This document shows, in pieces, positions 4,293 to 60,051 of a DNA stretch of 64,000 nt. Within the stretch, counting starts at the first letter, position 1; each line of letters starts with the position of its first letter. The DNA is from Verrucomicrobiota bacterium. Its GTDB lineage: Bacteria > Verrucomicrobiota > Verrucomicrobiia > Verrucomicrobiales > DEV007. Below the pieces are notes generated by a model. That model was given only the letters and a program-made list of their open reading frames with translations, did no database searches and was not told the origin of the DNA. The stretch spans positions 1 through 64,000 of the forward strand of contig DAOUQC010000010.1 in NCBI GenBank assembly GCA_030625775.1. The letters are read 5' to 3'. A program made the position numbers and the translations under genes.

Positions 4293-5276
4293 ATGAGTGA
4301 TTCCTCACCTACACCACCGGATCCACAGAAACCGTCCAAGAAGACGTCGACAGTTCCGTTGAAAAAAGAAACGGTTCGTATTACCCTTCGTGCACGCCCC
4401 GAGGACACAGGTCCCATCGTACCACAAGGGGTAACCCAACCTATCAGACCGGTAGGTGCATCTGTGGATGGAGGCGCTGTTTCGCCAGTGACCGGCTCGA
4501 TTCCACCCATCGGCAGCACCATGCCGATCCCGGGACAAGCAAATCCTACTGGAAGCGTTCCACCCATCGGCAGCACCATGCCGGTTCCAGCACAAGAAGG
4601 CCCTACGGGAAGTATTCCACCGATTGGCAGCACCATGCCAGTACCGGGAGCCGCTCCTGTTACGGCTACCGCGCCCTCTGCGCCACCTACCCCTACTATT
4701 GCTCCTGTCGGACCCAGACCCAATTCACCTACGGCCGCACCTGCACCACCCCCGGCACCTGCAACGCCGGCACCTGGCCAAGCTCCGCTTGCCCCGCCTC
4801 CTGCACCAGTAGCACCACCACCCACTGGAGGTGGAGCCAAAACAGTTACTTTAGGTGCTGCGGCTGCACCGCCTGCTCCCCAGCAGCGTGCTCAAACCGT
4901 GCCACTCTCTCAGGGAGTCGCTCCGGCGCCAACGGCCGCTCCTATAGGCGCAAAAACTATTCCTTTGGCCAAGGCCCCGGCACCAGCTGGACCAGCCATT
5001 GGGAAACAAACCACTCCGCTCGCTGCACCAGGCAGTGCCAAGCCTCTGCCAAAGGCAACCGTCAAACTGCAGCAAACCCAATCCATGGGAGCAGCAGGAG
5101 GTTCCCCCATCAGTGCCGCTCCTAACATTAAATCAACGGCAGCAGATGAAGCCGAAGAAGAATGGGAGGAAGATTTTGAAGAATCAGGCCTTATGCCTTT
5201 TGCTATTATTGTTATCATCCTTTCAATCGCCGTATTCTTAATTGAATTCATGGCATATCAAGTCGGCCAGGGCTGA
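4293..5276 (+). CDS. Proline-rich repeat protein with C-terminal membrane anchor
   Basis: Unrecognised 327-residue protein. A charged N-terminus (1-40) leads into three 19-residue repeats at about 67-122, each of the form TGSxPPIGSTMPxP. A long Pro/Ala linker follows, an acidic stretch (EEEWEEDFEE) and one membrane segment at about 301-323, beginning MPFAIIVIILS. Short Thr motifs of the kind TVPL/TVTL/TIPL occur at least six times (TSTVPL, AKTVTL, AQTVPL, AKTIPL, KQTTPL, KATVKL). The layout suggests a tail-anchored protein with a flexible cytoplasmic arm. The spaced Thr sites could be kinase targets, but that is inference. It is not a secreted protein because there is no N-terminal signal. 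A short homologous tail ORF follows. Confidence 0.72.
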   Translation: MSDSSPTPPDPQKPSKKTSTVPLKKETVRITLRARPEDTGPIVPQGVTQPIRPVGASVDGGAVSPVTGSIPPIGSTMPIPGQANPTGSVPPIGSTMPVPAQEGPTGSIPPIGSTMPVPGAAPVTATAPSAPPTPTIAPVGPRPNSPTAAPAPPPAPATPAPGQAPLAPPPAPVAPPPTGGGAKTVTLGAAAAPPAPQQRAQTVPLSQGVAPAPTAAPIGAKTIPLAKAPAPAGPAIGKQTTPLAAPGSAKPLPKATVKLQQTQSMGAAGGSPISAAPNIKSTAADEAEEEWEEDFEESGLMPFAIIVIILSIAVFLIEFMAYQVGQG

Positions 5277-6503: not shown

Positions 6504-8003
6504 TCAGAATTCTCCATTTCGCAGAGCATCAAATGCCAGACCCAACTCACTACCGATCGTCCGTGCTGTCAGAGACTCTGCCGATTGAAGCCCTTCATAT
6601 ACAAATTTTTCCGCATTACGTCCGATCAGCCAACTTCCCAGACAAGCCGCATCGTAGAGGGAAAGTCCTTGTGCTATTAAACCGGCACATATGCCCGTCA
6701 GCACATCTCCTACCCCGCCGGTAGCCATTCCCGGGTGCCCGGTCGAGTTGATTGCCTGCGGCTGCCCTGCCGAGGCAATCAAGGTGCGGGCTCCTTTGTA
6801 TAACAGCACTCCTTGAAAAGATTTTTGCTTGATGAAATCATCGACCACATCAAAACGGTTTTCACAGGTGGCCGCCTCTGGAAAAAGACGCATCATTTCA
6901 CCCGGGTGCGGAGTTAAAAGACGCTGATGACCGCATTTGGCCAAACCGTCAAAAGAATTATCCCAACGAGCCAGGCAGTTTAAGGCATCCGCGTCGACCA
7001 CCATCGGGCGAGGATCATTCAAAATCAGATCCAACAAAGCCGGATCAGGTTCAACCCCCAAACCAGGACCCACCGCCAGCACTTCAACAGCATCTTCACG
7101 AATGTCCTCAAAGCAATCAATAGGCTTCACCATGACTTCCGGTGAAGCTTTTGTTGCGAGAATATCATAGATGGATTGCTCAGCATACAAAGTCACCAAT
7201 CCTGCCCCGGATTGCACTGCGGCTGTTGAAGCCAATACCGCCGCCCCGGTCAACCCTCTCGACCCAGCCAAAATACCCACACGCCCCGCTCGGCCTTTGT
7301 GACAATCAAAGTCTCTGCGCGGCAATAAACCTGCCAAATTACCAGGGGATAATACCACGGAACTATTACAACTCTCTGCAAATACAATCTCCGGCAAGCC
7401 AATCTGGGCAATTCTCCCAACATGATTGATCGCCACATCTTGAACGATACCCGCCTTGATCGCGGCAATCGACAGGGTGATGTCAGCCACCACCGCCCCT
7501 GGATAAGGCGTGCCAAGATCCCCATCCACTCCCGATGGAATGTCAATCGCGAAACAAGTGGCATTGCTTTCTAAACGTTGATGATTGAGTTGCTCTGCCC
7601 GTTCCCCGATAATTCCCCGCAGCGGGCCGCGTGCACCAATACCCAACAATCCATCCACCACAATGCCTCCGCCCATGCGATTTGAGGCAGCCCATTTACT
7701 CTCTGGCTCTGCTGCCAATTCAGCCAGTTTTTTGGCTGCCAAATCAGTCATCTCAGAAGGCTCTCCCGATAAAACCGCCTCTACCCTCCAACCCTGCTTG
7801 CGAAGCTCACGTCCTGCAACCAAGGCATCCCCGCCATTATTGCCCTTACCTACAAATAAAGTGGCCCGCCCCGGTACAGGGAAAAATTGCCTAATGGCCC
7901 GGGAGCAAGCCTGCCCCGCTTTTTCCATCAAATCCTCGGCCACAACGCCGGTCGAAAACAAGCGCTCTTCCGCCTGCTTCATTTGTTCACATGTAACGAT
8001 CAT
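6504..8003 (-). CDS. nnr: Bifunctional NAD(P)H-hydrate repair enzyme (epimerase + ADP-dependent dehydratase)
   Basis: A 499-residue two-domain protein that repairs hydrated NADH/NADPH. The N-terminal YjeF_N epimerase has GKGNNGGDALVAGR, with GNNGGD at 54-59. The C-terminal ribokinase-like dehydratase has GHPGMATGGVGDVLTG, whose Gly-Val-Gly-Asp is the catalytic/ATP-site signature. ATG at 8003 (MIVTCEQMKQAEERLF) is chosen. The longer frame to 8201 runs through the amidase terminator and lacks family similarity. The two domains are both full length. The gene lies downstream of the amidase on the same strand, separated by a terminator hairpin, so it is probably expressed separately. Confidence 0.94.
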   Translation of the reverse strand: MIVTCEQMKQAEERLFSTGVVAEDLMEKAGQACSRAIRQFFPVPGRATLFVGKGNNGGDALVAGRELRKQGWRVEAVLSGEPSEMTDLAAKKLAELAAEPESKWAASNRMGGGIVVDGLLGIGARGPLRGIIGERAEQLNHQRLESNATCFAIDIPSGVDGDLGTPYPGAVVADITLSIAAIKAGIVQDVAINHVGRIAQIGLPEIVFAESCNSSVVLSPGNLAGLLPRRDFDCHKGRAGRVGILAGSRGLTGAAVLASTAAVQSGAGLVTLYAEQSIYDILATKASPEVMVKPIDCFEDIREDAVEVLAVGPGLGVEPDPALLDLILNDPRPMVVDADALNCLARWDNSFDGLAKCGHQRLLTPHPGEMMRLFPEAATCENRFDVVDDFIKQKSFQGVLLYKGARTLIASAGQPQAINSTGHPGMATGGVGDVLTGICAGLIAQGLSLYDAACLGSWLIGRNAEKFVYEGLQSAESLTARTIGSELGLAFDALRNGEF

Positions 8004-8021
8004 CACCCTGATTCCTGTCAG

Positions 8022-8052
8022 CAAAAAGAAAGCCCGCACACGCGGGTTTCGC
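8022..8052 (-). terminator. Rho-independent terminator after the amidase gene
   Basis: On the minus strand AACCCGC pairs with GCGGGCTT and is followed by CTTTTT. It sits between the amidase stop and the nnr start. Confidence 0.8.
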
Positions 8053-8094
8053 AAGTCTGTTTCTGATCCGGACCCAGCCTGGCAAGTCCCTTGA

Positions 8095-8772
8095 TCAACG
8101 TTTTTTCCGGTATTCCAAAATACCGCGGGCAATGCTGTCTGCGACAACCTGGCGGTATCGGGGATCGAGCATAGAAGATCGTTCCCCCTTGTTGCTGACA
8201 AAACCGCCTTCGACGAGAACCGCAGGGTGGCGGGTTTTTCTAAGCACGGAAAAATTGGCCGTTTTGACCCCTCGATTGGTACAACCTATCTTCCGAATGA
8301 GCTGCCGCTGGATGTAATCAGCCAGATTGCGCGAGGTCGAGCTCCTGTAAAAAGTCTCAACCCCAGTCACTTTACTCTTCCAGCTCCAGTTGAAATGAAT
8401 GCTCACAAAAATAGCATTGCGGTATTTATTTGCTCGTGCCGAACGAGTCGAGAGAGGAATAAAGTCATCAGTATTTCGAGTCAAGACCGTCCGAAACCCA
8501 CTCTCCCGAAGAGTTCGTTCCAAACGCCTGGCCACATCGAGATTCAAATGTTTCTCATAAATCAATGAGCGGCTGGCACCCAAATCATGCCCACCGTGGC
8601 CGGCATCAATAATAACCGTATTAAAAGCCGCAGCTGCCTTCCCTGCCCCGATTGTAAGGCTCATAGCTATAAAACACAGCCCAAAAAAGATTTTGCCCCA
8701 AGTCGACTTAAATCGTGAGTTACGCAGTGCAGGTATCATCTTTTTTTTCAGCCTATTGATGCCTTCAAACAT
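8095..8772 (-). CDS. N-acetylmuramoyl-L-alanine amidase (Amidase_3)
   Basis: A 225-residue zinc amidase that cleaves the lactyl-peptide bond of peptidoglycan. A basic N-terminus and a hydrophobic stretch at about 27-48 (IFFGLCFIAMSLTIGAG) act as signal or anchor. The zinc ligands and catalytic residue are all present: His in IDAGHGGHDLGA, Glu in EKHLNLDVA, His in SIHFNWS, and the terminal Glu of VEGGFVSN. No SPOR, AMIN or LysM domain is attached, so septal targeting would need a partner. An in-frame ATG at 8739 is an alternative start. A terminator follows the gene. Confidence 0.93.
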   Translation of the reverse strand: MFEGINRLKKKMIPALRNSRFKSTWGKIFFGLCFIAMSLTIGAGKAAAAFNTVIIDAGHGGHDLGASRSLIYEKHLNLDVARRLERTLRESGFRTVLTRNTDDFIPLSTRSARANKYRNAIFVSIHFNWSWKSKVTGVETFYRSSTSRNLADYIQRQLIRKIGCTNRGVKTANFSVLRKTRHPAVLVEGGFVSNKGERSSMLDPRYRQVVADSIARGILEYRKKR

Positions 8773-8935: not shown

Positions 8936-9847
8936 TCAATTGAGAGGCATGCCTGGAGGAAGTTCCGAGAGTTTATGGAATTCATTTTTCTCATACACCA
9001 CATCCTGCATTTCTTCAGGAATCCCCCCTTCGACGACAATGTCTCCACTCCCCACTCGAACCAGAAGCGGACGATTTTCACCCTTGGCAAAATAATACTC
9101 CTGGGGCTGGGCCTTACCCTCGACATCGATAATCGTATGCGCATACGCTTGCGGAGCTCCCATATGCAGAATATGCAGGCGGTTTTGGTTATCGACCCCC
9201 ATCTTGGGGTCGGTCACCATCAGCAGCTTGCCTAGCGAATAGGTCGTTATCACCGTCCCCGAGTCGGCTCGGCTGAGGCGAAAATATATCTCCTTCCGCC
9301 CCTGATAATCAAATCGCAGCACTGCGTATTTCCGGTAAGTTCCCGCTTCTTGATAACCTGGAGGCACTCCAACCGTCCACGAATCGAATTCATGCCCCTC
9401 AGCAACCTGCAACGATTGGATTGGGGTTCGGAAATAACGATTCAAGGGAGGAAAATAAACACTCGCTCGAAGCCGGTACACGCCATTGCGCCCCATAGGA
9501 TAACGGCGATTCACATACACCTGTTTTTTAAACACCCCCCCGGCCTGTATCATCACGGGATCCAACCCCGGACGTCCCACCACAGGAGTGAGAAGGCCTC
9601 CCTCGGCATCCGTTACCTGAAAATCCAACCAATTGGCCCCGTTGCGTCCCGCTATGACCAGATCACCACCTGATCGGTTTACGATGGTTAATTCCCCCGC
9701 CACAGCTTCGTGCGCCATATAAACCTTCTTATTCAGCTTGAATGTGACCTGAATTTGAGCCTGCATGCGATCAAGGTTCCCCACCAGAGGAAAAATCACC
9801 AGCAAGCTGATCGTCAAAAGAACACGTTTTGATATTGAGCGATTCAT
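8936..9847 (-). CDS. Secreted protein of unknown function
   Basis: A 303-residue protein with a signal peptide ending near residue 31 (MQAQ). The mature part is beta-rich: an N-terminal segment (VTFKLNKKVYMAHEAVAGELTI) resembling the Ig-like domain that precedes structural modules in secreted proteins, then a second beta domain. No catalytic motif, lipobox or membrane segment follows the signal. It is probably a conserved verrucomicrobial periplasmic protein, but I cannot name its family. It lies upstream of the amidase on the same strand with a gap of about 160 bases, so it is likely transcribed on its own. Confidence 0.65.
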   Translation of the reverse strand: MNRSISKRVLLTISLLVIFPLVGNLDRMQAQIQVTFKLNKKVYMAHEAVAGELTIVNRSGGDLVIAGRNGANWLDFQVTDAEGGLLTPVVGRPGLDPVMIQAGGVFKKQVYVNRRYPMGRNGVYRLRASVYFPPLNRYFRTPIQSLQVAEGHEFDSWTVGVPPGYQEAGTYRKYAVLRFDYQGRKEIYFRLSRADSGTVITTYSLGKLLMVTDPKMGVDNQNRLHILHMGAPQAYAHTIIDVEGKAQPQEYYFAKGENRPLLVRVGSGDIVVEGGIPEEMQDVVYEKNEFHKLSELPPGMPLN

Positions 9848-10006: not shown

Positions 10007-12214
10007 TTATTGCACTGCAGGCGGCGGAATACTTCTCACGGTCCGAAAACCAGTGTTCAATGCACTGTCTTCCGGACTGTTGGCAGGACGACGGCCCGTC
10101 AGTTCAAAGCCTTCTTCCGTCTGAAAAGAGTTGCCCCGACGAATGGGAACCTCCTTGTCCGGGTCATCAGGATGGGTATCCCATGAATCGGTCCATTCAC
10201 TGACATTGCCAGCCATCCCTTTGACGTCATAAGGGCTGACATCTCCCTCAAGAACATCCACCGGTGCCCAGTAGCGGTATTTATCACTGCCCTGCTGAGT
10301 TGCCCCTGAATTAAAACGGGAAAGATCCAGTTCATTGCCCCAGGGATAAAGATTACCGTCCGTTCCACGGGCTGCCTTTTCCCATTCATGTTCAGTTGGA
10401 AGGCGTCCCCCTTTCCACTTTGCGTAAGCGTAAGCATCCCACCAGTCGACCCCCATCACCGGGCAATTCAAATCAATCGCAGTTCCGTAATACTCTTTCC
10501 CTTTTACCGCAGCCCTGAAATACTTATTCCAATCGGAAGGACGATAGCTCTTTTTTGTTGCCGGCTGGTTGGGATGAGCCCACGTCTTTGCCCTCTCCTC
10601 ATCATTCTCAACGCTCTCGATGAACTTGGCATACTGGCTGATCGTAACTTCATACTCATCAATCCAAAACTGCTTCAATTTCACCTCTTCATCCTGCTGG
10701 TAAATAAATATACCCGCTGGAATTTGTACCATATAATCAAAATCTTTCCCTTTGGCATTACCTCCCATGGTCATCGCCATAATGATACCGGCCAGGACCA
10801 CTCCCCCGCCGATCATACTTCCTACAATAATAGCCGAACGATGGCTCGACTTCTGAGTGTGATCCGAACTGCTGCCTCCCAGCTTTTCTCCCAAATAATC
10901 CAAGGCAACCTTCAACTGGTCCAAGGTAACTATTGCCTGCCCCACATTGGCATCCCCTTGTCCATGCATCCGCACCATCAAGGCATGCAAAGCAAGCTCC
11001 CCGCCATACCGGCTTTTGGTCAACAGAGGAAAAACAGCATCTGCCAGCAAACCAACCTGCTCGGCTTCGTCAAACTTCAACTCACCCGAAATTACTGAAT
11101 TGATAACCTTGGGCTGCCCCTCTTTGCCGATACGAATCAGGTCAGCTGTAATGGGCCGGAAATTCATCCGGTTCTCAACCAAATAAATCACCGCATCCGC
11201 CACGGTGCCCAGCAATTGGATCACCGCTCCATCACTGAGTTTTTCTCCGTGATCCGCCAGCTCAGTCAAACTCGGATCATCAACCCGTTCCCGGGCATAA
11301 AAATTCACCCCATTCTCCTGATTGGCCTCATACACCAGGGCAATGACCGGATGATTCACCAATGCTCTGCTGCGCGCTTCCTTCAGCAACGCTTCCACTT
11401 TGGCGGGATCCCGTCGATGAAAGCGATGCAAAGCTTTGAGATTAACCGTTCGATTGATCCCTACCTGCTCTGCATCATAAAGAGCCCAATCTGGATTGGC
11501 TTCGATCAAGTGCTTCAGCTCATAGTCCCCCAGGCGGGAACCTACGGGCATTGGACCTTCCCCTTCAGGTATTTCAGCTACCGGCAACGACTCTATGGAA
11601 ACGGCTACGGGCACAGGCGGTAAATCCGTCACCGCACTGTCAACCGCTTCTTCAGGCACTTCAGCTACCGGCAGCGACTCTATGGAACCGGCTACGGGCA
11701 CAGGTGGTAAATCTATCGCAACACTCGCGACCGTTTCAGGCACTTCAGCTACCGTCAGTGACTCTGGTGTATCCACCTCATGTAGAACCGCCTCCGCCAT
11801 TTGCGAGGCTCTTTCTTTTTGTGCGCTATGCACCCATGCCACAAAAGCATCATCCGACAAAGGCTGGAAAAACAACTGCTCCCCGTGGATCCAGTCATAA
11901 TAGCCGTTCATATCCCCGGCACCGTAAAAGGCCCCCGGCAAAACACCAAAGCGTTCGACGATCTTATCCCGGAGAGCAAAAACCAAATCTCCTTTTTCCT
12001 CTGGGACCGAAGAAATCAGCATATCAAGATGATCAGCCTGAGAAACCATTGCCCAGGCTTCCCCGGGATCTGCAGCAAAGCTGATCTCCCCCCCAGGAAT
12101 CTCCTGATTCAACAAGGCGACCATGGCTTCAAGGCGGCTGGCAGATTCATCCACCACTAACACATAAAAACTCCCACCAGATACGTGGTTTGCATCACTA
12201 CTACTTGTCATCAT
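10007..12214 (-). CDS. Degenerate receiver + pseudokinase + membrane segment + FGE-like domain protein
   Basis: A 735-residue protein with an unusual order. Residues 16-130 look like a response-regulator receiver (FYVLVVDESAS), but the expected phospho-acceptor Asp after LDML is Ser and the Lys-Pro pair is Gln-Pro (117-118). Residues 151-217 hold two to three Pro-rich repeats (SIESLPVAEVPE type). Residues 228-440 have a protein-kinase outline with a possible beta-3 Lys (K260) but no glycine loop, HRD or DFG. One membrane helix spans 461-483. Residues 495-730 form a formylglycine-generating-enzyme/sulfatase-modifying-factor fold (GGRLPTEHEWEKAARG, GNVSEW, TGFRTV) without the paired catalytic cysteines. 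It is probably a sensory or scaffold protein and not an enzyme. Its start overlaps the TPR gene stop by 4 bases. Confidence 0.82.
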   Translation of the reverse strand: MMTSSSDANHVSGGSFYVLVVDESASRLEAMVALLNQEIPGGEISFAADPGEAWAMVSQADHLDMLISSVPEEKGDLVFALRDKIVERFGVLPGAFYGAGDMNGYYDWIHGEQLFFQPLSDDAFVAWVHSAQKERASQMAEAVLHEVDTPESLTVAEVPETVASVAIDLPPVPVAGSIESLPVAEVPEEAVDSAVTDLPPVPVAVSIESLPVAEIPEGEGPMPVGSRLGDYELKHLIEANPDWALYDAEQVGINRTVNLKALHRFHRRDPAKVEALLKEARSRALVNHPVIALVYEANQENGVNFYARERVDDPSLTELADHGEKLSDGAVIQLLGTVADAVIYLVENRMNFRPITADLIRIGKEGQPKVINSVISGELKFDEAEQVGLLADAVFPLLTKSRYGGELALHALMVRMHGQGDANVGQAIVTLDQLKVALDYLGEKLGGSSSDHTQKSSHRSAIIVGSMIGGGVVLAGIIMAMTMGGNAKGKDFDYMVQIPAGIFIYQQDEEVKLKQFWIDEYEVTISQYAKFIESVENDEERAKTWAHPNQPATKKSYRPSDWNKYFRAAVKGKEYYGTAIDLNCPVMGVDWWDAYAYAKWKGGRLPTEHEWEKAARGTDGNLYPWGNELDLSRFNSGATQQGSDKYRYWAPVDVLEGDVSPYDVKGMAGNVSEWTDSWDTHPDDPDKEVPIRRGNSFQTEEGFELTGRRPANSPEDSALNTGFRTVRSIPPPAVQ

Positions 12215-13332
12215 TGAGGAAATAAACTGCTGTCCGGACCACTCAAGGCCCCATTATTTACAGGTGGTGCACTTGGATTGAGCCCCATAAGTTTCCGTGG
12301 AGCTGCCACAACGTCCTGTAATTCATCCTGATAATACAACTCTACAATATAACCGTAATAAACCCTTTCACCCAGTTCCCGTTTTTGTTCATTAGTGAAC
12401 ACAGGTTGGTAATAACTCACTTCAATCTGTTCGCTTTCACCATTCTGCCAATCATAAGGAGCAGATATATACGATTCGGAGGTGTCCGCCGTCGAGGGTA
12501 AAAATCGCTTTCCGTCCACTAAATCATAAAAATACACCAGCAGGGCCATATCTGCACCTGCAGGGCGGGCTCCTGGCTTGGCTTGTATCTTCACACGCAG
12601 GGTAATTCTTTCTCCTGCAGTGACTGCCTTGTCTCGTATTTCAGCAATATCCCCAATGGAAAGCATAGAGTCCTTACCCGGCACCGGCTCGAGCTGCTTG
12701 CCTTTCAACACCATGTCTGCCATATCAAAATAAGCCCCCGCCCGCAGCTCTCCCAAACGATAAATTTTTTCCCAGTAAGAGGCCGCTTTATCCCCCAGTC
12801 CAAGCTGGGCATAGGCCCCCGCAATTTCGCTGAGGATGCGCGGGTGCTCAGGCAATTTCGCCTCTGCAGACTGCAAGGTGCGCAATGCTGCGTGCATATT
12901 ACCACTGGCCCGCAACTCGAGAGCGGTGTTCAAAAGTCTCTCAACCGCAGGGTCTTCAATAAGATGAGCCGAATGAATCTGCCGTGAAGCCGCGGGAATG
13001 CCCGCCTGCCCCCCACCTCCCAGGCCCGCCAGCGGTGGAGTCGGTAATACCGGCGACTGGCCTGCCTTCTCTTTCCTGAAAATTTCCGGCATCGGCGGTA
13101 GTCCGCCATTGGCAAGGCCTGCTACCGTCATTGAAGCTGGTTCCGCTGGCACAGGTACGGAGACAGCCCCAGTCACCTTTACCTTCGCCGAATCCGGTGT
13201 TGCAGGATGATGCCGCATGATCACCCATCCCATGGCTAGAAATTGCCCTCCAGCAAGTAAACCAAGAATCCACATCGCCACCGTGAATGTACGATTACTT
13301 TGACTATTGGTATTATACAATTCTTCTGCCAT
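12211..13332 (-). CDS. Single-pass membrane protein with TPR-like helices
   Basis: A 373-residue protein whose membrane helix lies at about 17-40 (TFTVAMWILGLLAGGQFLAMG). A Pro/Gly-rich linker, a helical TPR-like region (about 125-205, TALELRASGNMHAALRTLQ onward) and a beta-rich C-terminal domain follow. The C-terminal domain ends in a Pro/Ser tail. I prefer ATG at 13332; a TTG at 13347 would add five residues. Its stop overlaps the start of the pseudokinase/FGE-like gene (ATGA), so both proteins are made from one transcript and are likely partners. The topology puts the TPR part outside the cytoplasm. Function unknown. Confidence 0.72.
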   Translation of the reverse strand: MAEELYNTNSQSNRTFTVAMWILGLLAGGQFLAMGWVIMRHHPATPDSAKVKVTGAVSVPVPAEPASMTVAGLANGGLPPMPEIFRKEKAGQSPVLPTPPLAGLGGGGQAGIPAASRQIHSAHLIEDPAVERLLNTALELRASGNMHAALRTLQSAEAKLPEHPRILSEIAGAYAQLGLGDKAASYWEKIYRLGELRAGAYFDMADMVLKGKQLEPVPGKDSMLSIGDIAEIRDKAVTAGERITLRVKIQAKPGARPAGADMALLVYFYDLVDGKRFLPSTADTSESYISAPYDWQNGESEQIEVSYYQPVFTNEQKRELGERVYYGYIVELYYQDELQDVVAAPRKLMGLNPSAPPVNNGALSGPDSSLFPQ

Positions 13333-13545
13333 GTTCCGCTTTGACAACCGCTATTCGAAAAAGCAATGAGACTATGAATCTTGCCTCGCAGTGTCAATAC
13401 CGATGATGCTTTCTTATTCGACCGCAATCCGGGCTTACCGTTCGATTTGACTGCCCGGAAATCATTCCAGAAGCGTTCCACTTGAAATCCCCCCCGGCAA
13501 TGTGTATCCAGCATTAATACCAAACACCTTCACCATCCGGGCTAT

Positions 13546-39325: not shown

Positions 39326-41575
39326 CTATTTCAGTGTTTTTCCAAAAAAAGCGTCTGCCGTTTCAATCATTTCGTCGAACCAGACTTGTTTGCCCAGAAA
39401 CGGATGCGGCGCGTCCTTGATGACAGTGAGGTCGGACTGGATACCGAGTTTCTCCATTTTCTGACGGATTTTATTCGCATGCGTGCTGGGGTCATCGTGC
39501 TCGCCGGTGATAAACCAGCATGGAGGATCACCCTTATCGAGATGGCTTAGCGGAGAAGCAAGGCGATAGGTTTCGGGTTGCTCCTCTTGTGATCCACTGA
39601 GGAACTGTTGCCAGATTTCTTTTTGGCTCGATACCTCCCGATTGCGTTCCGACATGAAGTCGGTCTGCGCCCCCATCGGCACAGCAGCCTGAATCGTGCT
39701 GCTGATACCGGCATTCCCTCCTTCACCCTCGAGCTCCCTGGCCTCACCCGAGGTCGAGAGCAAGGCGACCAAGTGCCCACCTGCCGAATGACCGATCGCT
39801 CCAATATTGTCGGGATCGATTCCGTATTCTCTGGCGTTGGCGCGCAGAAACCGGACGGCCGCTTTGCAGTCTTGAATCTGTGCCGGGAAAGGCGCTTCCC
39901 CGCTCAAGCGATAGGAAATCGTTGCCGTGACATAACCGCGTGCGGCTAGCGCCTGAGCAGGATTTGCATGATTAACCCTGCTTCCTTTCCCCCAACCGCC
40001 GCCGTGAATGCAAACCACCGCGGGCAATTCGCCCCAGGCACCCTTGGGTCGGTAAATGTCCATCTCGAGCGTGCGATCCCCATAACGGGCGTAAGTCACG
40101 TTAAGCTTCGCGTCCAGACTGTCACTCACCGCTTGCGTGATCTCGGTTCTCCCGTCAGCGCGTGGCGGAGATGTAGCCTCCCCTGCCGATCGAACATCCA
40201 GCCGCATCTCCTCCTGGAACAGAACTGTCATGCCGCGCAACTTGCGTGTGATATCACGATTGCGAACTAGGCTGGATTCCCCGGGATCCTTCGCCAGGTC
40301 ATACAATTCAAGACTGGGATTCAAATAGAGTTTCCAGTTACGCCAACGCACAGCAGCCAGCGCGCCCTGACTACCGTGATAAAAAAAAGCGTCATTGTAT
40401 TCGTTACGATTGATAATCGGTGCCCATTCACCGGGCGGATTCCACCGACGCCGAAGGGGAACTGAAGCATTCAGCGATTTCTTCATTCCAGGTGGAGGTA
40501 CGATTTTTGTTTCGCCCTTCAACAATGGACTGATGTCACGCCCGTCAATGACGCGGCCTTTTGGAACCTCGAGCCCCGCAAACGTGGCGAGCGTCGGATA
40601 CCAGTCCATGGCACGCACGACCGCCGCGGATTTCACGCCCTCCTGCAAACCCAAGCCCGGCCCCCAGGCGATCGCCGGCACACGAATACCGCCTTCGTAG
40701 GTAGAAAGTTTGCGTCCGCGAATTTTCTGTTCCGGCGTGCGACCTGGACCACGACCATTGTCGGATGCATAGATGACAATAGTGTTATCATCGATACCCA
40801 GTCGTTTCAGCGAATCAAAGATACGACCTACGTTGTGATCAAGTTCTTGAATCGCGTCACCATATTCACCCCAGTTTGAACTGCCCTTGAACTCCTCGCT
40901 CACGCCAAGTGGATGATGAAGCATAGTGTGTGGCAGATAGATGAAAAACGGCCCGTCCTTGTTCTTCTCGATGAATTGAATGGCCTCATCAGTGTAGAGC
41001 TTCGTCAGTTGCGCGGGATCGGCCGGACGCTTAACAACCTCGTCATTGCGCATCAGAGGCACTCCTCCCTGCTCCTCGAAAAAGGAGACCTCAACCGGAT
41101 CAAGATTGTGCAGCAGTCCAAAGTAGTGATCAAACCCCTGGTTGCGTGGCAGGAACGGTTCATGAAAACCAAGATGCCATTTGCCGATGCACGCGGTTGC
41201 GTAGCCGTTGTCCTTTAACAACTCGGCGATCGTCAACTCATCCGGATGGATACCCGAGCGCGAATCCGCTCTGTGTACCCATATCTCGTTGCCCACTCGA
41301 CGTGGATAACACCCGGTCAGCAAACCGGCGCGTGATGGACTGCAAATGGGAGCCGCCGCATAATAATCCGTAAAACGCGTCCCTTCCTTTGCCATCGCAT
41401 CGATCCACGGCGTATTGACTTCGGTCGCTCCATAACAACCCAGATCATAGTAGCCCTGGTCATCTACAAAGATGAAGACGATGTTGGGCTTTGTGGTTGC
41501 AGCATGAATGGGCGTGGAATAAAGCCCAAAGACAAAAGCAAGAATCAAGAGAGGTAAGAGGAATTTCCGCATCAT
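39326..41575 (-). CDS. Sulfatase fused to an alpha/beta-hydrolase esterase
   Basis: A 749-residue two-domain exported enzyme. Residues 1-25 are a signal. Residues 28-470 form an S1-type sulfatase: metal pair D38-D39, formylglycine motif C78-S-P-S-R82, then GKWHLG (131-136) and SDNGRGPGR (271-279). Residues 490-749 form a carboxylesterase/lipase: oxyanion motif HGGGWG (524-529), nucleophile S597 in GHSAGG, acid D694/D695 and H724. The fusion could remove sulfate and ester groups from the same polysaccharide. Both active sites look intact. It stands alone on the minus strand, downstream of the Ser/Thr kinase. Maturation of C78 by a formylglycine enzyme elsewhere in the genome is required. Confidence 0.93.
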   Translation of the reverse strand: MMRKFLLPLLILAFVFGLYSTPIHAATTKPNIVFIFVDDQGYYDLGCYGATEVNTPWIDAMAKEGTRFTDYYAAAPICSPSRAGLLTGCYPRRVGNEIWVHRADSRSGIHPDELTIAELLKDNGYATACIGKWHLGFHEPFLPRNQGFDHYFGLLHNLDPVEVSFFEEQGGVPLMRNDEVVKRPADPAQLTKLYTDEAIQFIEKNKDGPFFIYLPHTMLHHPLGVSEEFKGSSNWGEYGDAIQELDHNVGRIFDSLKRLGIDDNTIVIYASDNGRGPGRTPEQKIRGRKLSTYEGGIRVPAIAWGPGLGLQEGVKSAAVVRAMDWYPTLATFAGLEVPKGRVIDGRDISPLLKGETKIVPPPGMKKSLNASVPLRRRWNPPGEWAPIINRNEYNDAFFYHGSQGALAAVRWRNWKLYLNPSLELYDLAKDPGESSLVRNRDITRKLRGMTVLFQEEMRLDVRSAGEATSPPRADGRTEITQAVSDSLDAKLNVTYARYGDRTLEMDIYRPKGAWGELPAVVCIHGGGWGKGSRVNHANPAQALAARGYVTATISYRLSGEAPFPAQIQDCKAAVRFLRANAREYGIDPDNIGAIGHSAGGHLVALLSTSGEARELEGEGGNAGISSTIQAAVPMGAQTDFMSERNREVSSQKEIWQQFLSGSQEEQPETYRLASPLSHLDKGDPPCWFITGEHDDPSTHANKIRQKMEKLGIQSDLTVIKDAPHPFLGKQVWFDEMIETADAFFGKTLK

Positions 41576-41784: not shown

Positions 41785-42906
41785 TTAAAACAACCAGTAC
41801 GCGACCGCTGCAATCACCAGTAAAAGGATGATTGCCAGCCCATAAAATCTTAAGCCCGATCCCCCTTCTCCTTCGTTCTCATCCTGTGATTTTTTTCCGC
41901 TGGATCTTCCAAGCAGTGGGATATTGATCGCAGGCAAAGAAAAGGACAATTTAATCTCAGGCAGGGACAAACTGAGTGGCGGCGCTGTGACTGGCACATC
42001 CTCCTCGTCCGCTCCAGACTTGATCTTCGCTATAGGCTGACTCACAATCTGATCGATGTCTGCCCGAATTGCTGACGCTGAAGGGTATCGCTGCTCCGGA
42101 TCCGGTTCCATCGCATGCTGCACCAGACCGTCCAACCTCACATCCAGTTCCGGACGCAGTTCGCTCGGCAACTTGAAATTACCTTGTGGCAATTTGCCCG
42201 TGAGCATCTGGTATAACATTACGCCCACCGCATAAAGATCGACACGATGATCAAGAATGCTTCCAGATTCCATGGCCTCAGGAGCTAGATAAAACGGCGT
42301 GCCAAGAGCAAATCCAGTAGCACTGATACCAGGATTGCTCTCATCTTCGCTCACGCCAATTTTTTTCATCAACCCAAAATCCGCAATTTTCACTCGTCCC
42401 TCTTGATTGAGTAAAATATTAGCCGGCTTGATGTCACGATGGATAATGCCAAAACCGTGAGCATAAGCGAGACCATCAAGAACGTGCGCAGTGATGGAAA
42501 GCGCATACTCTTGAGACAAGTGTCCGCCGTGATGTTGCAGGTAATTATGAATGTCCATTCCATTTACGAATTCCATTACCAGGTAAAACTGGCCGTCGGC
42601 TGTCTCGCCGAAATCATACACCGAAATAATCGCCGGGTGATCGAACCTGGCCATCACTCGAGCCTCCTGTTTGAATCGTTCGATAGGGTTCACTCCCTTA
42701 TTACTCTGTATAGCGGATTTGCAGAGAACCTTGATTGCCACATCCCGCCCAAGACCTGCCTGCCTGCCTTTAAAAACAGCCCCCATAGCCCCCCTGCCTA
42801 GGATGTCGACAACATCAAATTGCGGAAGCATTCGATCCAGTTCCGCGGCTGTGGGAAGATCCCAGTCGCCTGGTGAACGGGGTGGGGTTGAGTCTGATAA
42901 CGACAT
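41785..42906 (-). CDS. Membrane-tail Ser/Thr protein kinase
   Basis: A 373-residue Hanks-type kinase. The kinase domain (residues 30-290) is intact: Gly-rich loop GRGAMGAVFKG (37-47), K59 in VAIK, HRDIKPANIL (156-165), DFG (176-178) and the APE motif. A Pro/Ser linker and one C-terminal membrane helix (about 352-372) anchor it with the kinase in the cytoplasm. There is no sensor (PASTA) domain outside. It is probably active. No dedicated phosphatase or FHA partner is adjacent. Confidence 0.94.
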   Translation of the reverse strand: MSLSDSTPPRSPGDWDLPTAAELDRMLPQFDVVDILGRGAMGAVFKGRQAGLGRDVAIKVLCKSAIQSNKGVNPIERFKQEARVMARFDHPAIISVYDFGETADGQFYLVMEFVNGMDIHNYLQHHGGHLSQEYALSITAHVLDGLAYAHGFGIIHRDIKPANILLNQEGRVKIADFGLMKKIGVSEDESNPGISATGFALGTPFYLAPEAMESGSILDHRVDLYAVGVMLYQMLTGKLPQGNFKLPSELRPELDVRLDGLVQHAMEPDPEQRYPSASAIRADIDQIVSQPIAKIKSGADEEDVPVTAPPLSLSLPEIKLSFSLPAINIPLLGRSSGKKSQDENEGEGGSGLRFYGLAIILLLVIAAVAYWLF

Positions 42907-45459: not shown

Positions 45460-45693
45460 GTAATTTTTCAGAACTCACTTATGTGATATACACTCAGGCA
45501 AGAGCCTTTACTCACCCCATACTACGCTGACCTGCTCCGTCAGAACCCGGGCATAAACTTAGTAGCCCTCGATACATGAAGGTTTTCCACCGATAGATAA
45601 AAAAATTCAGTCCATTCACCACTCGGTTTTTGCCCAGCAGGTCGTATGGTGTTAGTGTGCCCAACTGTTTTATCTCCTTGGAAAAATTCAAAT

Positions 45694-47895
45694 ATGACCA
45701 TCTTTATGAAACGCCTATTCATTCTTTATTCTATCTTCTTCGCCCTGACTTCTCCCGTCTGGGCTGAACCTCCTAATATTGTTTTCTTTTTCACCGATGA
45801 TCAGACCACGAGCACAATAGGTTGTTACGGAAATCCGGTGGTCAAGACACCCAACATCGACGGGCTCGCGGCCCGGGGAACACGCTTTAGCAATGCCTTT
45901 GTCAGTCACCCAATCTGCTGGGTCAGTCGCACCACGATTCTATCGGGCTTAACGGGACGCAGTTTTGGCACCTCAGGTGACCCGGATAAGGCCCGCCCCG
46001 ATGCGGTCGAGACTTTGTATTCCGATATTCTCAGAGAAAAAGGTTACCGCACAGGCTATTTTGGCAAGTGGCATGCGAAGATGCCCAAAGGCTACGTCAA
46101 AGAAGATCACTTTGATGAGATGGAGGTGATCGGGCGCAATCCCTTTTATAAAAAACAACCGGACGGCAGTCTGCGCCATGCGACGGAGCTAATCGTCGAC
46201 CGCGGGATTGAGTTTGTGAAAAACCAACCCAAGGGTAAACCCTTCGCATTGAACATGTGGTTCAATGCCTGCCATGCAGAGGACAGTGATCGTCGCCCGG
46301 GCATTGGTCATTTCCCCTGGCCACGAGCGGTCGATGGAATGTATGAAGATCTGGAAATGTACCCGCCGCGGTTGAATGATCCGGCGATTTTTGAGCAACA
46401 GCCCGATTTTTTGAAGACCACCATCAATCGTGAGCGCTATTTCTGGCGGTGGAATACGGACGAAAAATATCAAACCAACATGCGCGCCTATTACCGAATG
46501 GTCAGTGGAATCGATGGTGCCATCGGTCGCTTTATGAAAGCCCTGGAAAAAGAAGGTCTCGCCGAGAACACGATTATTATTTACTCGGCTGACAACGGCT
46601 ACCACATGGGCAATCGGGGTTTTGCCGGCAAATGGTCGCACTACGAAGAGTCCCTGAGGGTCCCTCTCATCGTGGCTGATCCACGGGTACCGAAAAAACA
46701 GCAGGGACAAGTTAGTGAAGCTTTCGCCCTCAATCTCGATCTGCCGGCAACCTTTCTGGACTGGGCGGGAGCCGTGATTCCCAAACGCTATCAGGGTCAT
46801 AGCCTGCAACCCATCGTTAATGCAGGCGAACCCGATGATTGGCGCAAAGAGACCTATCATGAGCATTTTGCCGTGCGCAATCGCATTCCCGCCTATGAAG
46901 GCTTGCGCAACGAAAATTTCAAATACGTGCGTTACATCGATGAAGATAACTATGAGTTTCTCCATGATCTAAAGAATGATCCGGACGAATTGGTCAACCT
47001 GGCAAACGACCCCAAATTCGCAGACACGTTGAAGCAGATGCGCGCACGTACTACCAAACGCATTTCGACACTGGGCGGACCTCTTGATGCAATGAAAACG
47101 AAATTATCGGCTTCGACTCCAGCGCACCCCAAGGCATCGGGCGCAGTCACAGAAAAACCAGGAGCGGACGGTTATTACAATCTGATAAAGGGGGGCAATT
47201 CCCTGAGAAACTGGAGTGGAGATCCGAAGTATTGGTCGGTCAAAAATGGAGTCATCACTGGAGTGGCCGATGGCTCGTTGAAAATGAATCGATTCCTGAC
47301 TTGGAAAGGATCGACGATTCGCAATTTTGATTTACAGGTGAAGGTCAAGGTGAGCCCTGGAGGCAACAGTGGTATTCAGTATCGTGGCAAATCCCGCGCG
47401 GATCTCGGACTGGATGTGGTCACCGGCTACCAATGCGATGTCGTGGCCAAGGTGCCGAAATACAACGGCATGCTCTATGAAGAAAAGGGCCGCCGCATTC
47501 TTTCCCATACAGGTGAAAAAGTCATTATCGACAGCAAAGGACAACCCTGGGTGGTTGGAGAAATGCCGGTCAAGGAATTCGCTGCCGATCAATGGCATGA
47601 CTATCGGGTGCTGGTACGCGGCAATCATCATCAGCATTGGATCGATGGACATCCAACCGCTGACCTGATTGATTTGGATGAAGCCGGTCGAGCGCTCGAA
47701 GGCGTCCTGGCGGTTCAAGTTCACGTCGGTCCGCCGATGGAAATTCAATACAAGGACTTCAGAATCAAACATCTGCCGGATGGCCTGCCCTTGATTCAGG
47801 CCAACGAGGTCACCATACCTGCAGAGGCACACGGAGTGCGTCCCCAAGGTAAGCTACCTAAAGACTGGAAGGCCCCGATTTACGGGAAGCAGTAG
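45694..47895 (+). CDS. Sulfatase fused to a DUF1080 domain
   Basis: A 733-residue exported enzyme. Residues 1-24 are a signal. The N-terminal S1-type sulfatase has D35-D36 and the motif C75-W-V-S-R79 in place of the usual C-x-P-S-R. GKWHAKMPKG and SADNGYHMG follow. The C-terminal segment (about 505-715) is DUF1080 (3-keto-disaccharide hydrolase-like), with GNSGIQYRGK and WHDYRVLVRGNHHQHWIDGHPT. Linking them suggests stepwise breakdown of a sulfated glycan. The start at 45694 follows GGAAAAATTC. It lies downstream of the mini-element and aminotransferase. Confidence 0.9.
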   Translation: MTIFMKRLFILYSIFFALTSPVWAEPPNIVFFFTDDQTTSTIGCYGNPVVKTPNIDGLAARGTRFSNAFVSHPICWVSRTTILSGLTGRSFGTSGDPDKARPDAVETLYSDILREKGYRTGYFGKWHAKMPKGYVKEDHFDEMEVIGRNPFYKKQPDGSLRHATELIVDRGIEFVKNQPKGKPFALNMWFNACHAEDSDRRPGIGHFPWPRAVDGMYEDLEMYPPRLNDPAIFEQQPDFLKTTINRERYFWRWNTDEKYQTNMRAYYRMVSGIDGAIGRFMKALEKEGLAENTIIIYSADNGYHMGNRGFAGKWSHYEESLRVPLIVADPRVPKKQQGQVSEAFALNLDLPATFLDWAGAVIPKRYQGHSLQPIVNAGEPDDWRKETYHEHFAVRNRIPAYEGLRNENFKYVRYIDEDNYEFLHDLKNDPDELVNLANDPKFADTLKQMRARTTKRISTLGGPLDAMKTKLSASTPAHPKASGAVTEKPGADGYYNLIKGGNSLRNWSGDPKYWSVKNGVITGVADGSLKMNRFLTWKGSTIRNFDLQVKVKVSPGGNSGIQYRGKSRADLGLDVVTGYQCDVVAKVPKYNGMLYEEKGRRILSHTGEKVIIDSKGQPWVVGEMPVKEFAADQWHDYRVLVRGNHHQHWIDGHPTADLIDLDEAGRALEGVLAVQVHVGPPMEIQYKDFRIKHLPDGLPLIQANEVTIPAEAHGVRPQGKLPKDWKAPIYGKQ

Positions 47896-58212: not shown

Positions 58213-60051
58213 TTATTGTTTTCGTAATTGGATGCGGTCGATCTTCAGGATTTGTTTTTTGACTTTGGAGCTGAAGCGCAGCAGATGCAAACCCGCTTGA
58301 TCAAAACTGACGGTGCCTGCCGAAACAAGCTCTAAAACTCCCGCTTTGCTTTTCTCAATGTTGACTAACTCCTTCATCGGGTAAGCTGAATCAGCCTGTT
58401 TGACATCGTCGATAACGGCTGAAGTGGAGAGTGAACAGGCGCCCTGTGCCGAGAGCACTACAGAAAGCTCGTATTCCCCCGCCTTTTCGATCTGCACTAC
58501 AAACTCGATGTAACTTCCCTCCCCCTTGCGCAGGTCGGCGCAGACTACTGTGCCACCTGAGGCAGGCTCACGTTTCTTCGGATAGTGAAAGTTGCCGCGC
58601 TGGCCATAATCGGATGAGCTTTGATGAGGTAGATCCTCTGCTTCCAGCCACCCCTCTTTGTTTGCATTCGGATGCTTGATACTCAGGTGCCGGCTCAGTT
58701 TGGCGATGACCTCGGCATACTCGGGCTTGTCGGCCAGGTTGGTGAATTCGTGAGGGTCGCTGTCGAGTTGATACAACTCGGTTTCTCCTGTTGCGAATCG
58801 AGTCATGCGGTAGTCGTTGGAGAGAACGACGTCGTAACGGATGCCATCGGCCTCGCTCGACATGAGAACGGGTTTGTCCCATTCAGACTTGGGGTTCTTG
58901 AGCAAGGGCACCAGACTGTTGCCATCGAGTGCTTGTGGAGGCGGTGGTATCTCCAGTAACTCGACCAAGGTGGGGTAAAGATCCTGGAGAGAAACTGCCT
59001 TGTCACAGAACACCCCCTCGGCCAGACCCGGGCCTGCGATCATGAGGTTCACGCGGGAGGAGTCATACCAGGGTTTCATTTTTGACCAACCCTCTTTCTC
59101 GCTCAGTTGGTAGCCGTGGTCACTCCAGAGAACGACATAACCTTTTTCGGCGTGGGGGCTCGTATACCAGGCGTCCAAAATCCTCCCGACTTGTTCGTCG
59201 GCAAAGCTCACACAGGCGAGATAGGCCTGCACCTTTTCCCTGTCGTATCCCGAGGCCTCGAGTTTGTCGTGATAGCCAGGGCCGAACTTGGCTTCGTTGT
59301 GAGCCATCAATTTGAAACGCTCCGGCAAGTCCTCCAAATCGTCTTCCCGGTGCTCGGGCATAAGCAGGCTCTCCAAGGGATTTCGGTCGAAGTATTCCTG
59401 CGGGACGACCCAGGGCACATGGGGTTTATATATTCCCAGGGAGAGAAAAAGGCTGTCGGGATTCGACTTCAGAGCTTTGATCCCTTTGCTCACTGAAACG
59501 TAGTCGGGCATTTCAGTGGTCGGCACTGTGGCAACGCCCCATCTACCGGAGGCATTAATATTCCGGTATGTTTTGGGGATGGGTTTTGGCTCGTTATCAC
59601 GGCGAGTGTATTGGTCGAATTCAGCCCGGTCCCCATTGTGGAAATTTTTACCGATGCCAACGCTCTTCCAACCCTGGGCGCTGAGGTGTTTTGGCAGGGT
59701 AACAGCATCGGGGACATAACTTCGCCAGGATTTGCCGCCATTCGGGTTGGACTTGGCACCGGTGCGCGACGGATGCAGCCCGGAAAAAAGAGAGGTTCTG
59801 GAAGGAAAACAAACGGGCGACGAACAGATTGCGCGAGTGAAGGTGACGCTGCGAGCAGCAAAGTGCTCGAGATTCGGGGTGATCGCCTGCGGGTGGCCTT
59901 TAATTACGCTGTTCCAGTCGTTCCAATCGTCAATATTCAAAAAGAGCACACTGGGGCGCTGTGAACGGGCCACTTGAAGCAAAGAGAAAAAGGCAAGACA
60001 AAACGCTAAGAACCTGAAAGTTCTTCTTCTAGAGAAAGTTGGATGATTCAT
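58213..60051 (-). CDS. Iduronate-2-sulfatase-like sulfatase with C-terminal beta domain
   Basis: A 612-residue exported sulfatase. Signal about 1-30. Metal pair D41-D42, formylglycine motif C81-F-P-S-R85, GKNFHNG and LWSDHGYQLSEKEGWSK are consistent with the iduronate-2-sulfatase group. Residues about 500-612 form an extra beta domain (EYELSVVLSAQGACSLS), perhaps glycan binding. It is the first gene of the 54-60 kb cluster and is 3 bases from the FAD oxidoreductase gene. Confidence 0.92.
   Translation of the reverse strand: MNHPTFSRRRTFRFLAFCLAFFSLLQVARSQRPSVLFLNIDDWNDWNSVIKGHPQAITPNLEHFAARSVTFTRAICSSPVCFPSRTSLFSGLHPSRTGAKSNPNGGKSWRSYVPDAVTLPKHLSAQGWKSVGIGKNFHNGDRAEFDQYTRRDNEPKPIPKTYRNINASGRWGVATVPTTEMPDYVSVSKGIKALKSNPDSLFLSLGIYKPHVPWVVPQEYFDRNPLESLLMPEHREDDLEDLPERFKLMAHNEAKFGPGYHDKLEASGYDREKVQAYLACVSFADEQVGRILDAWYTSPHAEKGYVVLWSDHGYQLSEKEGWSKMKPWYDSSRVNLMIAGPGLAEGVFCDKAVSLQDLYPTLVELLEIPPPPQALDGNSLVPLLKNPKSEWDKPVLMSSEADGIRYDVVLSNDYRMTRFATGETELYQLDSDPHEFTNLADKPEYAEVIAKLSRHLSIKHPNANKEGWLEAEDLPHQSSSDYGQRGNFHYPKKREPASGGTVVCADLRKGEGSYIEFVVQIEKAGEYELSVVLSAQGACSLSTSAVIDDVKQADSAYPMKELVNIEKSKAGVLELVSAGTVSFDQAGLHLLRFSSKVKKQILKIDRIQLRKQ

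Follow-up and report, generated by a model that had tools for sequence, protein, structure and literature searches.

Chlamydia trachomatis Pkn1 is a fusion of a kinase with a domain resembling formylglycine-generating enzyme (FGE) (PMC3581485). Some membrane-linked pseudokinases whose activation loop is shortened or deleted serve as scaffolds, among them MviN of M. tuberculosis (family ActPs3), which regulates peptidoglycan synthesis, and EssB/YukC, which scaffolds a secretion system (PMC12599244). PorK has a cysteine-free FGE-like fold and was proposed as a docking hub for the beta-sheet of PorN (PMC12421860). Kinase-FGE fusions, bacterial pseudokinases and cysteine-free FGE folds are each already known. 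An earlier note on the DNA described here had proposed an as yet undescribed scaffold or ligand sensor; in the searchable literature (excluding subscription papers and preprints) no description was found of their combination in a conserved operon in which all kinase motifs are lost, which agrees with that proposal. The families treated in a pseudokinase review (PMC12599244) included neither a Verrucomicrobia family nor an FGE-linked one.

Gene layout and domains of the pair

The window is the whole stretch of DNA analysed, 64,000 nucleotides from a Verrucomicrobiota bacterium of the order Verrucomicrobiales. The genes and features concerned were as follows, with the evidence in brackets.

12211-13332, minus strand: gene of the TPR membrane protein, 373 aa (ORF translation, sub-threshold Pfam TPR_19, AF2, orthologues)
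13213-13305, minus strand: predicted TM helix of the TPR protein, residues 10-40 (AF2, hydrophobic sequence)
12706-12993, minus strand: TPR helices, residues 114-209 (sub-threshold Pfam, AF2, Foldseek)
12301-12663, minus strand: C-terminal beta-sandwich of the TPR protein, residues 224-344 (AF2 strands)
12211-12214, minus strand: ATGA, shared by the TPR stop codon and the fusion start codon (sequence)
10007-12214, minus strand: fusion gene, 735 aa, with pseudo-receiver, linker, pseudokinase, TM helix and FGE-like domain (ORF, Pfam, NCBIfam, AF2, Foldseek)
11810-12166, minus strand: pseudo-receiver, residues 17-135, Ser in the phospho-Asp slot and Gln in the Lys slot (AF2, alignment)
11555-11779, minus strand: fast-evolving linker, residues 146-220 (AF2 pLDDT 31-44, congener comparison)
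10880-11545, minus strand: pseudokinase, residues 224-445, with glycine loop, HRD, DFG and activation segment all absent (profiles, alignment, Foldseek)
11099-11101, minus strand: codon of Asn372, in the DFG-Asp slot (alignment)
10766-10843, minus strand: predicted TM helix of the fusion, residues 458-483 (AF2, hydrophobic sequence)
10025-10735, minus strand: FGE-like domain, residues 494-730, catalytic Cys pair absent (Pfam, alignment, AF2)
8936-9847, minus strand: third gene, exported 303-aa protein, working label "DUF303" (conserved neighbour)
8095-8772, minus strand: Amidase_3, exported N-acetylmuramoyl-L-alanine amidase gene (Pfam PF01520, E=5e-51)
6504-8201, minus strand: NAD(P)H-hydrate epimerase/dehydratase gene, after the amidase gene (Pfam)

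Both open reading frames of the pair described earlier are present, and the ATGA overlap on which their translational coupling was proposed holds up. The TPR gene starts with ATG, and an in-frame TTG lies at 13347. A frameshift artefact was ruled out, the fusion frame being open and conserved in relatives. Each of the two proteins has one predicted TM helix, from AF2 and hydrophobic sequence. The AF2 models of both were single-chain and built from orthologue alignments; the fusion model reached pLDDT ~90 in its folded parts with a pTM of 0.40, and therefore the domain arrangement in it is unreliable.

In the TPR protein, a Pro-rich stretch predicted by AF2 to be disordered separates the TM helix from the TPR helices. 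The TPR_19 match (E=3e-4) was under the Pfam cut-off; membership in the TPR repeats was given by AF2 helical pairs of pLDDT ~90 together with Foldseek matches to TPR structures, a designed TPR and the TPR of LpoP (prob 1.0, with modest E-values). The likeness to LpoP was set aside as evidence, being generic TPR similarity, and MHC-like Foldseek matches were taken as chance Ig-like similarity. The beta-sandwich has a paralogue in a 528-aa protein of the same genome, whose N-terminus contains a signal-peptide-like hydrophobic stretch.

The Pfam search of the window receiver gave nothing at E<=1, while those of relatives do match Pfam (1.3e-8; 2.3e-14); AF2 modelled it as an alternating beta/alpha domain with pLDDT ~90. 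Receiver columns were mapped by alignment against locus L112. Of 36 aligned receivers, just three (L112, L113 and L187) have Asp in the phospho-Asp slot, and eight have Glu. The window has neither the phospho-acceptor Asp, as the earlier note had stated, nor the conserved Lys of a phosphorylatable response-regulator receiver. In 16 of the 57 fusions, Akkermansia included, the N-terminus is too short for any receiver, so the conserved core is pseudokinase-TM-FGE-like rather than the triple arrangement; the domain order put forward earlier recurs across the whole order, but with the receiver as an optional part. In L114 a DUF4388 domain replaces the receiver, and in L190 a 225-aa protein, receiver-like plus DUF4388 and without kinase or FGE-like parts, lies between the TPR gene and the third gene. 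Because of these DUF4388 arrangements, the cytoplasmic input part seems exchangeable. The linker behind the receiver contains an 87-bp repeat in 2.4 copies (11563-11765).

The window kinase scored E=0.015 in Pfam, under the cut-off, and E=1.6e-10 against NCBIfam PknB_PASTA. Pkinase was matched by 16 of 19 aligned family members (best 8e-12), and by relatives down to 2.2e-13 across the Pfam searches. Foldseek placed the AF2 kinase model with M. tuberculosis PknB (E ~1e-12, prob 1.0, TMt 0.63). By homology and bilobal fold the domain has the Hanks-type kinase fold, with a C-lobe lacking the activation segment. In an alignment of 57 distinct orthologous fusions with 10 active kinases (five from the same genome, five from other phyla), the HRD Asp was kept in 1/57 fusions vs 10/10 active kinases and the DFG Asp in 0/57 vs 10/10. 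The window has Pro and Asn in these slots, and thus lacks both Asp residues of an active Hanks-type Ser/Thr kinase. In 55 of 57 fusions an Asn takes the place of the DFG Asp, and neighbouring catalytic positions are not so constrained. From DFG to alphaF the fusions have a median of 14 residues vs 37-65 in active kinases, therefore the activation segment is gone. The loss of loop, HRD and DFG claimed earlier was borne out by this alignment, with beta3 Lys and alphaC Glu retained in the window. Catalytic residues shifted rather than lost were ruled out by alignment with the 10 active kinases and with a true FGE.

Pfam PF03781 (FGE-sulfatase fold family) matched fusion residues 496-727 with E=2.4e-40 and 139.3 bits, above the gathering score of 23.3. 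The true FGE of the same genome (L208:983-2128) shares this fold and has GGSFLCHHSYC, while the fusion has neither cysteine; aligned to it, the window and every one of the fusions lack both FGE cysteines, so that 0/57 have the catalytic pair of a formylglycine-generating enzyme. PF03781-fold proteins with roles other than sulfatase activation (PorK/GldK, EgtB, PvdO) usually lack the FGE cysteines. Because this absence is usual there, the domain reads as a repurposed fold and not necessarily a decayed enzyme. The missing cysteine pair of the earlier note stood, and its label "degenerate" need not apply to this domain. Sulfatases are encoded in the window; the fusion as their activator was ruled out, the Cys pair being absent and the true FGE encoded elsewhere in the genome.

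Distribution, gene order and selection

The phylum-wide draw comprised 289 genomes, 38 of them from the window's order. The TPR gene and the third gene were each found in 38/38 order genomes, the third gene also in 198/289 across the phylum. The fusion was found at E<=1e-50 in 33/38, and in at least one of the remaining five a diverged copy occupies the same position. In a contig-wide scan most of the proteins retrieved were generic FGE-like ones, and orthologues were confined to roughly the first 13 loci.

Synteny was scored over 41 order loci. The TPR gene is directly followed by the fusion in 37 of the 39 order loci having a TPR match, with a gap of -4 or -1 in 12 of these 37, small gaps being approximate on the longest-ORF gene models used. 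At L077 the adjacent pair was scored apart by an over-extended ORF start, and L102 and L104 lie at contig ends. TPR gene and fusion are unlinked in two genomes, G010 (L101) and G313; therefore tight coupling is not obligatory. Of 40 order loci, 29 have the third gene next after the fusion, and the amidase gene follows the third gene in 12 of 29. In genome G162, probably that of A. muciniphila MucT, the TPR gene is located at 2,174,281-2,175,492, the fusion at 2,175,508-2,177,031 and the third gene at 2,177,066-2,177,908. The third gene product matched no Pfam or NCBIfam family; it and the amidase look secreted. Judged by gene order, the functional unit appears larger than the pair, with the third gene usually and the amidase gene sometimes included. 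The NAD(P)H-hydrate epimerase/dehydratase gene, found in nine of the 12 loci having the amidase gene, is probably housekeeping. The window amidase reads as a short form.

Outside the order, the gene order TPR-fusion-third gene was also found in L112 (Spartobacteria LR76), L113 (Chthoniobacterales) and L187 (another family of the class). The receiver of L112 is intact-looking (Response_reg E=2.3e-14, phospho-Asp and Lys present), and its kinase is already without HRD and DFG. In an ML tree with four active kinase-FGE-like outgroups, a branch of 100/99 support separates the order's sequences from the outgroups, L112, L113, L187 and three more loci that are unplaced or from outside the order, the root being uncertain owing to long outgroup branches. 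Read most simply, these sequences place the death of the kinase before the loss of the receiver Asp, which would have happened inside the order.

Within the genus, the pseudokinase is the most conserved part of the fusion, with 88% and 83% identity to two congeners (88% to L067), followed by the FGE-like domain and the pseudo-receiver; the linker evolves freely (53% and 32%). dN/dS was ~0.055-0.06 for the pseudokinase and ~0.06-0.1 for the domains of the fusion, these ratios being approximate since dS is near saturation. The catalytic residues are universally lost and yet the pseudokinase evolves slowest, so its fold would be kept for a non-catalytic purpose.

Comparison with described systems

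Pkn1 and the fusions at L122, L143, L150 and L184 likewise join an N-terminal Hanks-type kinase fold to a C-terminal PF03781 domain. The kinases of these four loci keep HRD and DFG, whereas here 57/57 are dead with the activation segment deleted; unlike Pkn1-type fusions, the one described here sits in an operon with genes of a TPR and an exported protein.

Like MviN of ActPs3 and EssB/YukC, the fusion has lost all three catalytic motifs, has a deleted or reduced activation loop and a TM helix after the kinase, and has a scaffolding role (proposed here). MviN and EssB/YukC belong to other phyla and have other partner domains, and the conserved Asn in the DFG slot is a feature of the family described here. 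Activation-loop deletion and a TM helix C-terminal to the kinase make a resemblance to ActPs3 rather than membership, the pseudokinase families ActPs3, GLW, CP1, DYD, DLHK and ActPs1-2 having been compared by their review description.

PorK/GldK of type IX secretion share an FGE-like domain without catalytic cysteines that is periplasmic (predicted here). PorK differs in being an outer-membrane-anchored lipoprotein which forms rings and has no kinase or receiver. Membership in PorK/GldK of the T9SS was rejected, NCBIfam TIGR03525 giving 53.1 bits vs a cut-off of 350.

Proposed role of the pair and other readings

We favour, with a probability of about 0.55, a reading in which the two proteins form the core of an adaptor that spans the membrane, works without catalysis, and has been conserved and passed down vertically in Verrucomicrobiales. 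This reading builds on what sequences and models show, namely the domain identities, the missing catalytic residues, purifying selection, a gene order that is conserved and the one TM helix of each protein. Also in its favour are the secreted look of the third gene product and the amidase, the paralogue of the TPR beta-sandwich in a protein with a signal-peptide-like start, and the precedents of PorK for the FGE-like domain and of MviN and EssB for the pseudokinase. The fusion would lie in the inner membrane, with the pseudokinase (and in many lineages the pseudo-receiver) in the cytoplasm and the FGE-like domain in the periplasm. The pseudokinase would be a folded protein-protein or dimerisation module instead of an enzyme, and the FGE-like domain may be a docking hub for periplasmic beta-rich partners, the likeliest being the TPR protein's beta-sandwich, the exported product of the third gene, or both. 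Such a complex would couple the cytoplasmic state to envelope upkeep, perhaps of peptidoglycan. The peptidoglycan link of the operon is weak, because the amidase gene adjoins in only those 12 of 29 loci and its short form could not be tied to the pair; the amidase association is the weakest link in the proposal.

A tentative alternative is an outside-in receptor, in which the FGE-like (C-type-lectin-like) domain would bind an external ligand (glycan, muropeptide) and the pseudokinase would signal allosterically to a cytoplasmic partner. The kinase-TM-FGE-like proteins with intact kinases in other phyla (L122, L143, L150, L184) are receptor-kinase-like, and FGE-like domains can be diversified binding proteins, as is the T. 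denticola variable protein 2y3c, a PDB match of the domain (E=0.0019). However, the conserved operon lacks a gene for a cytoplasmic partner dedicated to output, the exported and membrane proteins that it does encode would lie on the periplasmic side or at the membrane, and the receiver-like domain, where present, resembles an input more than an output.

We consider doubtful the idea of a Verrucomicrobiota-specific relay working from inside out, in which the receiver, ancestrally phosphorylatable, would set the state of the pseudokinase-TM-FGE-like part, and this part would recruit the TPR protein, the exported third protein and the amidase in the periplasm. If true, a two-component-type signal would lead to cell-wall remodelling without kinase activity in the relay.

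That the FGE-like domain is an enzyme of another kind, regulated by the pseudokinase, is unlikely; PvdO and the EgtB group would be the models, being enzymes of this fold that do not use the FGE cysteine chemistry. The FGE-fold residues R604, E610, W611, N670, E673 and W674 are strongly invariant, and there is similarity to the models of EgtB, SenA and PvdO; but PDB alignments found the same residues to be general to the fold, the three model scores fell far under their cut-offs (64.8 vs 360, 64.8 vs 420 and 15.4 vs 500 bits), and the Akkermansia branch lost several of the residues (N670 replaced, PWG lost) with the gene kept. Retained nucleotide binding or a non-kinase transferase activity of the pseudokinase, as in SelO and SidJ, seems less likely still: beta3 Lys and alphaC Glu are kept in the window and the DFG-slot Asn is near-invariant, unlike every other catalytic position, but across the family only 10/57 fusions have the beta3 Lys and 13/57 the alphaC Glu, and the glycine loop is lost. 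Decaying remnants or an assembly artefact, which the joint loss of several catalytic motifs could suggest, deserve hardly any credence and were rejected on the low dN/dS of the domains, a reading frame that stays open in every congener and throughout the order, the same losses in 57 orthologues and the conserved synteny.

The family would be a sizeable addition to the bacterial pseudokinases, at the core of an order to which Akkermansia muciniphila belongs, with its near-invariant Asn in the DFG-Asp slot and a set of candidate partners. After PorK, it would also give a second example of an FGE fold put to new use, possibly as a docking hub, and it offers an evolutionary series on one dead kinase, from an intact-looking receiver through a pseudo-receiver to none. 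Genes of the family occur in every sampled genome of the order, yet are without a named function; the conserved pair points to a scaffold or relay of the cell envelope that works without catalysis, and not to broken genes.

Receiver, linker and beta-domain

In the receiver alignment, the phospho-accepting Asp was retained in basal relatives outside Verrucomicrobiales (loci L112, L113 and L187). Within the order, family f4 (L075, L079, L080, L081, L095 and L096) carried Glu, the classic phospho-mimic, at the same position, and Ser, Ala or Gly occurred elsewhere. The linker of the fusion contained a tandem repeat encoding an acidic/proline repeat, and the C-terminal beta-domain of the TPR protein was also present in another protein of the window's own genome (G000).

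Window 11563-11765, within the fusion linker: 87-bp tandem repeat, 2.4 copies
L207:4306-5892 (G000 contig C115), minus strand: 528-aa protein with signal-peptide-like start

Genuine FGE, sulfatases and a separate kinase

A genuine FGE was found in the genome, which can serve the sulfatases encoded at window 39326-41575, 45646-47895 and 58213-60051; two of these are fusions. The window also encoded a separate kinase and a proline/alanine-rich protein; the Pfam search returned no family for the latter.

L208:983-2128 (G000 contig C73), plus strand: genuine FGE, both cysteines present
Window 39326-41575, minus strand: sulfatase with an alpha/beta hydrolase of the BD-FAE type joined at its C-terminus (Pfam E=2e-59 and 1e-50)
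Window 45646-47895, plus strand: fusion of a sulfatase with a 3-keto-disaccharide hydrolase domain
Window 41785-42906, minus strand: separate kinase, 373 aa, HRDIKPAN motif intact
Window 4293-5276, plus strand: 327-aa proline/alanine-rich protein, repeat-containing, TM segment at the C-terminus

Operon layout and the third gene

At locus L190, which belongs to a different order, a gene for a receiver-like protein took the place of the fusion in the operon and was followed by the third gene, the amidase and the hydrate dehydratase. Genomes G313 (L197/L198) and G010 (L101) retained both the TPR gene and the fusion, yet apart, and provide a natural test of the mutual dependence of the two genes.

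L190:8866-9543, plus strand: receiver-like and DUF4388 protein
Window 8936-9847, minus strand: third gene, exported 303-aa protein without Pfam or NCBIfam family

The third gene product was present in 198 of the 289 Verrucomicrobiota genomes of the phylum-wide draw; as a phylum-wide, family-less exported protein, it merits separate study.
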